Assembly: GCF_902833145.1 (NCBI RefSeq)
Contig: NZ_CADFEN010000008.1
Coordinates: 310,001 to 374,000 of the forward strand
Direction: 5' to 3'
Source: Burkholderia sp. BCC0506
GTDB lineage: Bacteria; Pseudomonadota; Gammaproteobacteria; Burkholderiales; Burkholderiaceae
Length of the DNA stretch: 64,000 nucleotides
Of this stretch, positions 36,003-40,770 are shown in pieces. The translations under genes and the position numbers were made by a program. Position 1 is the first letter of the stretch, and each line of letters begins with the position of its first letter. The notes under the pieces were generated by a model. The model saw nothing but the letters and a program-made list of their open reading frames with translations. It was not told the origin of the DNA and ran no database searches.

Positions 36003-36033
36003 GATATGTTATATCGTAGCGATACAATATATC
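36003..36033 (+). promoter_or_regulatory. Zur-box-like dyad upstream of the zinc operon
   Basis: GATATGTTATATC (36003-36015) and GATACAATATATC (36021-36033) are inverted repeats, with 11 of 13 positions matching around the CG-TAG-CG centre. AT-rich dyads of this type (TGTTATA...TATAACA) are bound by the zinc sensor Zur. It lies 36 bp before the first gene of a set known from zinc-starvation regulons. Confidence 0.75.
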
Positions 36034-36068
36034 ATCTGATCCTCGACGTCCTCTTCCGGAATCGCCCG

Positions 36069-37277
36069 ATGAACCCCGCCCTTCAACCGTCCACGCGGCT
36101 TCCCGTGACTGTCCTGTCCGGCTTTCTCGGCGCCGGCAAGACGACGCTGCTCAACCACATCCTCAACAATCGCGAGGGCCGGCGCGTCGCGGTCATCGTC
36201 AACGACATGTCGGAGGTCAACATCGACGCCGCGCTCGTGCGCGACGGCGGCGCGGGGCTGTCGCGCACCGACGAGAAGCTGGTCGAGATGAGCAACGGCT
36301 GCATCTGCTGCACGCTGCGCGAGGATCTGCTGATCGAGGTCGACCGGCTCGCGCGCGAAGGGCGCTTCGATCAGTTGGTAATCGAATCGACCGGCATCTC
36401 GGAGCCGCTGCCGGTGGCCGAGACGTTCACGTTCGAAGGCGAGGACGGCCGCAGCCTCGGCGAAGTCGCGCGGCTCGACACGATGGTGACGGTGGTCGAC
36501 GCGCTCAATTTCCTGCGCGATTACGCGTCGCGCGACAGCCTGCAAGCGCGCGGCGAATCGATGGGCGACGACGACGCGCGCACGGTCGTCGATCTGCTGA
36601 TCGACCAGATCGAGTTCTGCGACGTGCTCGTGATCAACAAGATCGACCTGATCGACGCCGGCGCGCGCGAGCGGTTGGTCGCGCTGCTGCGCGGGCTGAA
36701 CCGGCGCGCGCGGATCGAGATCGCCGAATTCGGCAAGGTGCCGCTCGAGCGTGTGCTCGACACGGGCCTGTTCGATTTCGACGCGGCGTCGCGCGCGCCG
36801 GGCTGGCTGCAGGAGCTGCGCGGCACGCACACGCCGGAGACCGACGAATACGGGATCCGCAGCTTCGTCTATCGCGCGCGGCGGCCGTTTCATCCGCGGC
36901 GCTTCTTCGATCTCGTCGAAAGCGAATGGCCGGGTGTCGTCCGCTCGAAGGGGTTCTTCTGGCTCGCCACGCATCCGACCGTCGCCGGTTCGTGGTCGCA
37001 GGCCGGCGCGGTCGCGCGGCACGGGCCGGCCGGCCACTGGTGGGCGGCCGTGCCGCCCGAGCGCTGGCCGCAGGACGCGGAAGCCGTCGCGCAGATCCGC
37101 GCGCGCTGGGACGAGCACGTCGGCGACGCCCGGCAGGAACTCGTGCTGATCGGCATGGACATGGACGAGCCGGCGCTGCGCGCGCGCTTCGACGCGTGTC
37201 TGCTGACCGATGCCGAGATGGCTGCCGGCCCCGAACACTGGACCACGTGGGACAGCCCGTTTCGCGACTGGCCCTGA
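36069..37277 (+). CDS. COG0523 (CobW-family) GTPase, probable zinc metallochaperone (ZigA-like)
   Basis: A 402-residue G3E GTPase with Walker A GFLGAGKTT (residues 18-26) and the metal site CICC (Cys78, Cys80, Cys81). It also has SNGCICCTLRED, the NKIDL guanine motif and a C-terminal CobW_C domain. This subgroup delivers zinc to client enzymes when zinc is scarce. ATG at 36069 is chosen because it begins at the family's N-terminus, after the Zur-like dyad. It heads a row of proteins that are zinc-sparing paralogues, some of which may be its clients. Confidence 0.9.
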   Translation: MNPALQPSTRLPVTVLSGFLGAGKTTLLNHILNNREGRRVAVIVNDMSEVNIDAALVRDGGAGLSRTDEKLVEMSNGCICCTLREDLLIEVDRLAREGRFDQLVIESTGISEPLPVAETFTFEGEDGRSLGEVARLDTMVTVVDALNFLRDYASRDSLQARGESMGDDDARTVVDLLIDQIEFCDVLVINKIDLIDAGARERLVALLRGLNRRARIEIAEFGKVPLERVLDTGLFDFDAASRAPGWLQELRGTHTPETDEYGIRSFVYRARRPFHPRRFFDLVESEWPGVVRSKGFFWLATHPTVAGSWSQAGAVARHGPAGHWWAAVPPERWPQDAEAVAQIRARWDEHVGDARQELVLIGMDMDEPALRARFDACLLTDAEMAAGPEHWTTWDSPFRDWP

Positions 37278-37337
37278 CCTGAACGCGCGCTTCCTGCATC
37301 GATCCGGATGGAGAAGGCGCTTCACCGGATTTCAAGC

Positions 37338-38258: not shown

Positions 38259-38833
38259 TCCGCAAGCTGTTCCGCTTCGAGAATGCGCACGTCGTGCGCG
38301 GCTGCAGCACGCGGCGCTGCTCGCATTCGATCCACGGCCATTCGTACCGCGTGGAGCTGCTGCTCGAAGCGCATGCGCTGGACCACGGGCAGATGATCTA
38401 CGACTTCGGGCTGCTCAAGGGCGACGTGCGCGACCTGATCGATGCGTTCGACCATGCGGTGACGCTGTGGTCGGACGACGATCCGTGCTACGTCGAAAGC
38501 ATGCGTCGGCATTCGGAGCGCTGGGTGCTGCTGCCGGTGTCGCCGAGCGCCGAGCAGTTCTCGCGCGTGTTCTTTCGCCTCGTCGACGCGGCGCTGCGCG
38601 GGACGCGCATGTCGAACGGCGAAGCCGACGTGCGGCTGCATTCGGTGATCGTTCACGAGACCGAGACCGGCTACGCGCAGTGTTTCCGCGACGACGCCTT
38701 CAATCCGCGCATGGGCCGCATCGACCTCGATGCGATCGTGTTCGCGCCGGCCATCGTCGCGCAGTGGCGCGATCCCGGCCTGTTCGAGCGGCTCAAGCGA
38801 AGCCATGTCCTTTCCCGGCAGGAATCCTCATGA
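38252..38833 (+). CDS. 6-carboxytetrahydropterin synthase-like protein (QueD/PTPS family)
   Basis: A 193-residue protein of the PTPS family, which acts after GTP cyclohydrolase in queuosine or pterin synthesis. Zinc ligands His13, His28 and His30 are present. The nucleophile Cys23 is one residue further from the HGH motif than in E. coli QueD (CSHSIHGH against CGRLHGH), and the protein is longer than the usual 120. The neighbours suggest it is the QueD2 paralogue of the zinc-limited state. It overlaps folE2 by 7 bp and the next gene by 4 bp. Confidence 0.82.
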
Positions 38834-39390
38834 TCCGAAAGAACCCGCGCGGCGACCTGCCGCAGATTCATCCGGACGCGTTCGTCGATCCGACCGCCAT
38901 CCTGTGCGGGTGCGTGATCGTCGAGGAGAACGTGTTCATCGGCCCGTACGCGGTGATCCGTGCCGACGAAACCGATGCGCGCGGCGAGATCGCGCCGATC
39001 GTGATCGGTGCACATTCGAACATCCAGGACGGCGTCGTGATCCATTCGAAATCGGGCGCGAGCGTGACGATCGGCCGGCACACGTCGATCGCGCATCGCG
39101 CGATCGTCCACGGGCCGTGCACCGTCGGCGACGGCGTGTTCGTCGGGTTCAACAGCGTGCTGTTCAACTGCACGATCGACGACGGCTGCGTGGTGCGCTA
39201 CAACGCGGTCGTCGACGGCTGCCACTTGCCGCCGGGCTTCCACGTGCGCTCGACCGAACGCATCGGGCCGGAAACCGATCTCGCCGCGTTGCCGCAGGTG
39301 ACGGCCGACGCGAGCGATTTCTCCGAGGACGTCGCGCGCACGAACAACGCGCTGGTGCTCGGTTACAAGCGGATCCAGAACGAGTTCTGA
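38830..39390 (+). CDS. Gamma-carbonic-anhydrase-like left-handed beta-helix protein
   Basis: A 186-residue hexapeptide-repeat protein of the gamma-carbonic anhydrase/YrdA-like group. The metal-ligand histidines are His72 (VVIHS), His89 (SIAHR) and His94 (AIVHG). Gamma enzymes can work with iron or cobalt, so a copy in a zinc-starvation operon is sensible; the same kind of gene lies by folE2 and pyrQ in the P. aeruginosa zinc-sparing locus. Carbonic anhydrase activity is inferred. ATGA overlap with the previous gene. Confidence 0.85.
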   Translation: MIRKNPRGDLPQIHPDAFVDPTAILCGCVIVEENVFIGPYAVIRADETDARGEIAPIVIGAHSNIQDGVVIHSKSGASVTIGRHTSIAHRAIVHGPCTVGDGVFVGFNSVLFNCTIDDGCVVRYNAVVDGCHLPPGFHVRSTERIGPETDLAALPQVTADASDFSEDVARTNNALVLGYKRIQNEF

Positions 39391-39393
39391 GTC

Positions 39394-40770
39394 ATGGACG
39401 AGCGGATGCGGCGCGAAGGGGACGACCGAGCGAAACGACGGCACGCCGATCTGCTGGTGCACGGCGGCACGGTGATGACGCCCAATGGCGCCGAGCGGAT
39501 CGACGTCGCATGCGCGGATGGCCGCGTCGTCGCGCTGGGTGCGTTGCACGGCACCTGGAGCGCCGACGTGCAGCTCGATGCGCGCGGATTGCACGTGCTG
39601 CCGGGCGTGGTCGACAGCCAGGTGCATTTCCGCGAGCCGGGGCTCACGCACAAGGAGACCCTCGAGGCCGGCACGCGCGGCGCGGTGCTCGGCGGCGTCA
39701 CGACGATCTTCGAGATGCCCAATACGCATCCGCTGACGCTGAGCGAGCGGGACTTGCAGACGAAGCGGGACCTGGCGCACGGCCGCGCATGGTGCGACTA
39801 CGCGTTCTACATCGGCGGCTCCGCCGTGAATGCCGAACGGCTGCCGGCGCTCGAATGCTTGCCCGGCTGCGCGGGCGTGAAGGTTTTCATGGGCAGCTCG
39901 TTCGGCGATCTGCTGGCCGACGACGAAACCGTGCTGCGCCGGATCCTGCGCAACGGCCGGCGACGCATGGCCGTGCACGCGGAGGACGACGCGCGGCTGC
40001 GCGAACGCAAGGCGATCGCGGAAGCGAGCGGCGACGTGCGCGACCATCCGCGCTGGCGCGACGTGGAAAGCGCGCTGGCCGCGACGCGGCGCATCGTCGG
40101 GCTGGCAGCGGAAGTGGGCCGCCGGCTGCATGTGCTGCACGTGTCCACCGCGGATGAAATGGCGTTTCTCGCACGGCACCGGCGGCGCGTGACCGTCGAA
40201 GTCACGCCGCATCACCTGAGCCTGCATGCGCCCGATTGCTACGAGCGGCTCGGCACGTTCGCGCAGATGAATCCGCCCGTGCGCGAACGGCATCATCGCG
40301 ACGCGCTGTGGCAGGCCGTGCGCGACGGCGTGGTCGACGTGATCGGCAGCGATCATGCGCCGCACACGCGCGACGAGAAGCGCCGCCCGTATCCGCAGTC
40401 GCCGAGCGGGATGACCGGCGTGCAGACGCTGCTGCCGCTGATGCTCGACCACGTGCAGGCCGGCCGCCTGAGCCTCGAACGGCTGGTCGACCTGACGAGC
40501 GCCGGGCCGGCGCGCGTTTTCGGCATCGAAGGGAAGGGGCGCATTGCGGCGGGCTACGACGCCGATTTCAGCATCGTCGACCTGCGCGCGCGGCGGGTCA
40601 TCCGCGACGAATGGATCGCGAGCGTGAGCGGCTGGACGCCGTACGACGGATGCGCGGTCACGGGGTGGCCCGTGCATACGGTCGTGCGCGGGCAGGTCGT
40701 CGTGCGGGATGGGGCGCTGCACGGGCAGCCGACCGGGGAGCCGGTGACATTTCTGGATGCGGCGGCTTGA
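39394..40770 (+). CDS. pyrQ: Dihydroorotase-like amidohydrolase, PyrQ type
   Basis: A 458-residue amidohydrolase resembling class-I dihydroorotases, for pyrimidine synthesis. The ligands Lys163 (GVKVFMG), HAEDD, TPHHLSL and SDHAPHT are intact. The first metal motif, HxH in classic enzymes, reads DSQVHFREPG, so Gln76 replaces the first His. The same replacement occurs in the PyrQ group, zinc-starvation stand-ins for PyrC. It begins 4 bp after the previous stop and ends the operon. Allantoinase or hydantoinase activity is a less likely alternative. Confidence 0.83.
   Translation: MDERMRREGDDRAKRRHADLLVHGGTVMTPNGAERIDVACADGRVVALGALHGTWSADVQLDARGLHVLPGVVDSQVHFREPGLTHKETLEAGTRGAVLGGVTTIFEMPNTHPLTLSERDLQTKRDLAHGRAWCDYAFYIGGSAVNAERLPALECLPGCAGVKVFMGSSFGDLLADDETVLRRILRNGRRRMAVHAEDDARLRERKAIAEASGDVRDHPRWRDVESALAATRRIVGLAAEVGRRLHVLHVSTADEMAFLARHRRRVTVEVTPHHLSLHAPDCYERLGTFAQMNPPVRERHHRDALWQAVRDGVVDVIGSDHAPHTRDEKRRPYPQSPSGMTGVQTLLPLMLDHVQAGRLSLERLVDLTSAGPARVFGIEGKGRIAAGYDADFSIVDLRARRVIRDEWIASVSGWTPYDGCAVTGWPVHTVVRGQVVVRDGALHGQPTGEPVTFLDAAA

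Follow-up and report, generated by a model that had tools for sequence, protein, structure and literature searches.

A predicted Zur-repressed zigA-folE2-queD2-gammaCA-pyrQ operon of Burkholderia and the distribution of its QueD2 form

The window analysed here is a stretch of 64,000 nucleotides from Burkholderia sp. BCC0506 (contig NZ_CADFEN010000008.1, positions 310,001 to 374,000), and our subject is a row of five genes within it, zigA, folE2, queD2, a gamma-class carbonic-anhydrase-like gene (gamma-CA) and pyrQ, preceded by a Zur-type operator; positions are those of the window. We read this row, with a probability of about 95%, as the Burkholderia form of the Zur-repressed ZigA-FolE2-QueD2-gammaCA-PyrQ operon. 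An initial annotation had proposed a single low-zinc regulon unit, and this is supported because exact operator half-sites stand at zur-znuACB and at a TonB receptor gene of the same genome, and because induction of the cluster has been published for B. cenocepacia H111 (PMC10563805). The gene set and its zinc response are already known, in kind from Haas 2009 (PMC2770081), in close detail from Cupriavidus (PMC10882993) and as the expression of a relative (PMC10563805). What we describe is this known zinc-starvation response, complete with its operator in 22 of 61 genomes sampled from the genus, and we correct the view that each of the five proteins is a zinc-free substitute. The history of QueD2 is the only part that might add to known work.

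Operator, zinc response and conservation of the cluster

The predicted operator (36003..36033, no strand assigned) is an AT-rich dyad of two half-boxes whose centres lie 18 bp apart. Arm 1, GATATGTTATATC (36003-36015), is separated by the 5-bp spacer GTAGC from arm 2, GATACAATATATC (36021-36033); by inspection the arms agree at 11 of 13 positions, and in the whole 31-mer 24 of 31 positions agree with the reverse complement. When the entire window was scanned for 12-base arms with at least 10 of 12 positions matching and at least 75% A+T, this was the sole site, and 20 first-order random sequences gave none, confirming the Zur-type inverted repeat of the initial annotation as the only AT-rich dyad of such strength in 64 kb. 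The likely operon promoter, ATGATA-16-TACAAT (36001..36028, forward strand), is a consensus match only, at 9 of 12 positions, but the single sigma-70-like promoter detected in the 6.5 kb from 34600 to 41100 (shuffled sequences gave a mean of 0.2). It sits within the dyad and is overlapped by the operator. The mechanically called open reading frame (ORF) of the COG0523 gene opens at 36006, inside the dyad; however, since the GTPase domain starts 12 residues after the ATG at 36069, that ATG is the likely start of zigA, and the dyad, which ends 35 bp upstream of it, is therefore untranslated and outside the gene. After pyrQ no terminator-like site was found.

The half-site GATAYGTTATATC has exactly three exact matches in the 7.29-Mb draft genome (45 contigs), namely in the window operator, before zur on contig C10 and before a TonB-receptor gene on contig C4. 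On C10 zur is followed by znuA, znuC and znuB, as named by homology and order. The zur upstream region shows a single box and the window operator two, which is why a dyad scan missed the zur site; the site came to light on inspection of the sequence and was then picked up by pattern search. The initial annotation would have been refuted by the absence of a related dyad at the znuABC or zur genes; an exact half-site of the kind stands before zur-znuACB, and this refutation therefore did not occur. The TonB-dependent receptor gene (C4, about 300769-300890; loci L014 and L026) has, besides its exact Zur-type box, a weaker box 109 bp off, which makes it a likely candidate for an outer-membrane zinc receptor. 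A COG0523 paralogue (65% identical, C12:60253) was also considered as Zur-controlled and was set aside, since inspection of the 250 bp upstream showed no box and the genome box list at up to two mismatches has no entry there.

In RNA sequencing of B. cenocepacia H111 under zinc depletion, the COG0523 gene rose by a log2 of 6.4, the largest induction of all genes, with FolE2 at 4.1, QueD at 3.5, carbonate dehydratase at 3.1 and zur at 4.6; the text also counts the dihydroorotase of the cluster as induced, and a dihydroorotase appears among the falling genes (PMC10563805). The cluster concerned, I35_RS28525-RS28545 (Barnett 2023, PMC10563805), consists of COG0523, FolE2, QueD, carbonate dehydratase and dihydroorotase genes with an acyl-CoA dehydrogenase adjoining, and compared by gene names only it shows no difference from ours. 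Similarly, the cobW1 operon Op0317f_1 of C. metallidurans places COG0523, FolE2, QueD, carbonic anhydrase and a PyrC/AllB-type amidohydrolase under Zur (PMC2770081; PMC10882993), differing in that it also carries cysS2 (cysS in Haas 2009, PMC2770081). There, most Zur targets have one box and the cobW1 operon two, and expression of the operon is confined to zinc concentrations of about 50 nM or less, or to the absence of Zur (PMC10882993). The set had been put forward in the initial annotation as a module worth describing, but with cysS it was already listed for C. metallidurans in Haas 2009 (PMC2770081). The Zur-controlled PA5532-PA5541 locus of P. aeruginosa likewise has COG0523 genes, folE2, gamma-CA and pyrC2, but differs in having dksA2, amiA and others, in lacking queD in the gene list given, and in putative Zur sites at several genes (Pederick 2015, PMC4542158). 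Neither dksA2 nor amiA is among the eight window genes that were profile-scanned.

Fur boxes resemble Zur boxes, and two Fur-family genes were found in the genome at E 0.001. Both points would suit a different account, in which the dyad is the target of another regulator, of the Fur family or otherwise metal-sensing, and the operon responds chiefly to iron or to general metal stress. We regard this as very improbable, since the identical exact half-site precedes zur-znuACB and the TonB receptor gene, the B. cenocepacia cluster is induced by zinc omission (PMC10563805) and the C. metallidurans counterpart is repressed by Zur (PMC10882993). Under Zur control, ample zinc would keep Zur on one or both halves of the operator, covering the promoter and silencing the operon, and as zinc falls Zur would release and the five proteins would be made together. 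To judge from their layout, the two halves are possibly two Zur dimer sites, and two boxes would then repress more tightly than one. Zur binding at this site, the two-dimer model, the co-transcription of the genes and the metal used by each enzyme are what we infer here.

The same gene order was then found in relatives, as the initial annotation had proposed to check. In the sample of 61 genomes of the genus, 28 (the genome of the window included) carry ZigA at 70% identity or more, and the region was fetched from the 27 others, the nearest having a ZigA 97-98% identical. All five genes stand in the same order in 21 of the 27 fetched regions, or 22 of 28 counting the window. The dyad is present in every one of the 24 clusters that carry the genes from the upstream neighbour dszC through gamma-CA (window included), with 26-31 of its 31 positions matching and its first base 65-68 bp upstream of the zigA start; averaged over these 24 upstream regions from Burkholderia, identity is 0.97 within the dyad, 0.57 in the preceding 80 bp and 0.78 in the following 25 bp. 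A pattern search for close QueD2 relatives gave 39 loci from named genomes. Sixteen of these (L103-L118, most of which repeat contigs already fetched) are Burkholderia clusters, with the five genes in order in 15 and no pyrQ in L109.

Outside these clusters, Chitinasiproducens palmae (L120) has all five genes in order, though at loose spacing, together with a zur-like gene that has a box with one mismatch beside it. In Burkholderia sp. Ac-20379 (L121) a zur-like gene lies directly upstream of queD2-gCA-pyrQ; this gene (2671-3106) is of the Fur family, 31% identical to zur, and has an exact box just before it. Azonexus (L122) combines queD2 with a zur-like gene and with a COG0523 gene and an amidohydrolase that are both distant, and in Zoogloea (L123) a gamma-CA-like start was seen by eye directly 3' of queD2. 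At the remaining QueD2 loci outside Burkholderia clusters, several of which are short, none of the cluster genes was seen except folE2 at L119.

Several observations weigh against the reading of a complete, Zur-repressed operon. When two mismatches or fewer are allowed, the genome gives 28 matches for the box and 10 for the reversed control, and weight is therefore placed on the exact GATAYGTTATATC matches only. Two of the 24 clusters, L074 and L083, are without an intact pyrQ, the rest of the cluster and the operator being intact; in L074 only a C-terminal remnant is left, and in L083 pyrQ was not found downstream of gamma-CA. Four of the 28 ZigA-bearing genomes (L096-L099) have zigA with at most folE2 (E 1e-15); the best-matching stretch contains at least one exact half-site in L096, L098 and L099, and none in L097. 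The pyrQ losses and the zigA-only or zigA-folE2 cases mean that the module is not indivisible. In H111 the neighbouring acyl-CoA dehydrogenase is induced as well, with a log2 of 2.8 (PMC10563805), a rise that the operator and promoter do not explain because the gene lies upstream of them, if this is also so in H111; the signal could come from antisense transcription or an unstranded library. Also to be counted here are the intact metal ligands of QueD2 and gamma-CA, described below. As a separate observation, L074 and L083 are sisters in the QueD2 tree.

Metal ligands of the five products

All five genes lie on the forward strand. The zigA product (36069..37277) is a COG0523 G3E-family GTPase of the zinc metallochaperone type, recognised by NF038288 (692.5 bits, cut-off 600), PF02492 and PF07683 and bearing the motif GCICC, of which CICC is retained in 28 of 28 ZigA. 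It is followed after 30 bp by folE2 (37308..38258), a GTP cyclohydrolase IB of the metal-promiscuous type (NF010200, 304.4 bits against a cut-off of 215; PF02649; solved FolE2 structures). A 7-bp overlap leads to queD2 (38252..38833), a member of the PTPS/QueD family with C-x4-HGH and a match to PDB 7v0f, and a 4-bp overlap to the gamma-class carbonic-anhydrase-like hexapeptide protein (38830..39390; PF00132; structure matches to Cam and CcmM). The last gene, pyrQ (pyrC2, 39394..40770), begins after a 3-bp gap and encodes a dihydroorotase (NF006559, 746.8 bits, cut-off 482) in which the HxH ligand pair has become QxH (Gln76). Families and junctions thus bear out the gene identities first assigned and their tight packing from folE2 on. 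Elsewhere in the genome there are two FolE1, one QueD1 and other dihydroorotase homologues, the full-length ones 29-34% identical and two pieces on contig C13 at 30 and 44%.

The five products had been described at first as zinc-sparing paralogues, and this does not hold for all of them: ZigA is a chaperone, and the metal ligands are intact in QueD2 and gamma-CA. In QueD2, His13, His28 and His30 (metal) and Cys23 (catalytic), with roles assigned by family analogy, are retained in 24 of 24 copies. The gamma-CA has His72, His89 and His94, aligned with the three His of CcmM and Cam, and keeps all three in 24 of 24. Zinc sparing is accordingly not required of either protein. In PyrQ, by contrast with these, the HxH pair reads QVH in each of the 22 intact copies, and the lysine and DHAP motifs are retained; Lys163, His195, His249 and Asp320 are present in the window protein. 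By the residues and families compared, the zinc-relaxed look is limited to FolE2 (by family) and PyrQ (by residue). This is the pattern of Haas 2009 (PMC2770081), where ligands are lost in the Zur-linked PyrC and kept in QueD, and FolE2 is described as a metal-relaxed family both there and in PMC10882993. A QueD paralogue also belongs to that published set (PMC2770081), so that speaking of a QueD-like gene inserted into the operon is misleading.

The gamma-CA score against the NCBIfam carbonic anhydrase model NF040597 (104.8) is far under the cut-off of 380, and enzyme activity is therefore not assured. The P. aeruginosa gamma-CA PA5540, encoded in the comparable cluster, is described as an active enzyme, and its authors tie its Zur control to zinc dependence (PMC13261364); by analogy, this description does not favour a zinc-free role for gamma-CA.

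The retained ligands lend themselves to another explanation, that the paralogues raise the copy number of enzymes which are still zinc-dependent, ZigA loading them with the last zinc. Such an account is in keeping with Zur control and stands against our reading only where zinc sparing is concerned. Haas 2009 (PMC2770081) offers the same alternative for QueD and others, and the 24 intact sets of ligands in QueD2 and in gamma-CA agree with it; on the other hand, the metal ligand of PyrQ is lost in every intact copy and the FolE2 family is metal-relaxed (PMC2770081; PMC10882993). We therefore hold it possible, though clearly the less probable of the two.

In the zinc-sparing reading, and by analogy with established enzyme functions, which the pathway roles of the five products would follow, ZigA would pass scarce metal to client enzymes and FolE2 would replace the zinc-dependent FolE where folate and queuosine synthesis begins. 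QueD2 would be an extra QueD, holding metal well or accepting another, gamma-CA would supply bicarbonate, perhaps with iron, and PyrQ would make dihydroorotate with an altered metal site.

The QueD2 form and its history

The window QueD2 matches PDB 7v0f, which we take to be the A. baumannii QueD2 of Jordan 2022, almost over its full length (residues 1-184 of 193; 108 of 184 identical; E=2.3e-76), and shares its subfamily and its C-x4-HGH motif. It falls under the cut-off of the QueD equivalog TIGR03367, which is of the C-x3-HGH type (64.9 against 89.25 bits), and is 98% identical to the QueD2 of B. cenocepacia NCTC13227. Together with the 97-98% identity of ZigA in the nearest genomes, this suggests that the window comes from the cepacia complex. 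The six QueD1 sequences examined have C-x3-HGH. Among 92 QueD2 rows, in which some genomes occur twice, one is without the C-x4-HGH motif; this is presumably L140, which is matched from residue 29 on.

At E 1e-50 the QueD2 form occurs in 32 of 399 sampled genomes of the order, that of the window included, and in none of 11 genomes from other genera of Burkholderiaceae. A scan for the PTPS family found two genes in each of five cluster-bearing Burkholderia; in the 31 other QueD2 genomes it found a single gene, at the QueD2 position, in 29, the exceptions being G366 with two PTPS genes and G081 with a second weak match. Because QueC is present in all 32 genomes scanned (the 31 others and the window's own), a working QueD is expected in them. 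The flanks (up to 1.5 kb) of the 29 QueD2 loci returned from these 31 genomes contain no folE2, gamma-CA or pyrQ. At the locus from G366 (L150) QueD2 adjoins zur and a COG0523 gene, and at two Campylobacterota loci (L137, L138) a QueD2-type gene was seen by eye directly after a queE-like gene.

The Burkholderia-type box was sought in the 400 bp before queD2 at 52 loci (L119-L141 and L150-L178, one of them without upstream DNA), and none was found at up to two mismatches; with the reversed pattern there was likewise no match, and the window operator was recovered. This is a weak test, as L122 and L150 adjoin a zur-like gene yet show no box, and other families may use another box.

In a tree of QueD2, from which the 16 Burkholderia rows L103-L118 were left out (14 of them, all but L104 and L112, match fetched contigs in length), the rows from Burkholderia, Chitinasiproducens, Azonexus and Zoogloea fall into one group with support of 94/90, just below the support mark. 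The Acinetobacter protein is in another group, of 36 rows, which is supported (99/92), and the other 35 rows of that group are without cluster genes in the DNA examined. Thus the Acinetobacter QueD2, unlike the Burkholderia ones, is placed with QueD2 from outside zinc clusters. Support in this tree is moderate, given that the bootstrap had not settled, that the Acinetobacter branch is long and that a meeting of long branches was warned of.

The sole-copy distribution, the flanks and the tree together suggest at least two captures of QueD2 by Zur clusters. We lean slightly towards a reading in which QueD2 would be a second form of ordinary QueD, its catalytic Cys one residue further from HGH, and not a zinc-starvation enzyme by origin. 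It would have been captured at least twice (Burkholderia/Azonexus; separately Acinetobacter), and a number of beta-proteobacteria, probably with some Campylobacterota, would have no other QueD; in the latter its gene can lie behind queE. On the same slight balance, the cluster would have recruited a pre-existing enzyme with better metal retention, not a newly evolved zinc-sparing one. No statement on the distribution of QueD2 was found in the literature searched, and one may stand in Phillips 2012 or Jordan 2022. The distribution offers a testable clue to why the QueD2 form was chosen for zinc starvation.

Upstream neighbours and the extent of the operon

Upstream of the operator and on the same strand lies dszC (34699..35910), encoding a DszC/SfnB-like oxidase with an acyl-CoA dehydrogenase fold, which ends 158 bp before zigA and stands beside it in 23 of the 27 fetched regions. 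This arrangement, together with the induction of the neighbouring acyl-CoA dehydrogenase in H111 (PMC10563805), is what a longer operon would predict, starting upstream with sulfur-scavenging genes and dszC, the dyad merely boosting an internal promoter. Two longer gaps between dszC and zigA that were read, in L073 and L076, contain an opposite-strand ORF; moreover, the window has no other such dyad, and the genome-wide box search gave no further match within it. We consider the longer operon unlikely and prefer an operon that begins at zigA. That the cluster is a recent insertion was considered and set aside, given the neighbours common to 23 of 27 regions.

The gaps in L073 and L076 measure about 1 kb, and their opposite-strand ORF spans about 270 aa and, as judged by eye, opens with a signal-like sequence. 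In the window, dszC is the last gene of a run at 29550-35910 that, by its gene content, looks sulfur-scavenging: a MetQ-like lipoprotein, an NtaA/DmoA-type flavin mononucleotide (FMN) monooxygenase, a MetN/MetI-type ATP-binding cassette transporter (by eye), a 280-aa protein and the DszC/SfnB-like oxidase. The 280-aa protein (33860-34702) has no Pfam or NCBIfam match at E 0.001, and its gene stands beside dszC in 23 of the 27 fetched regions.

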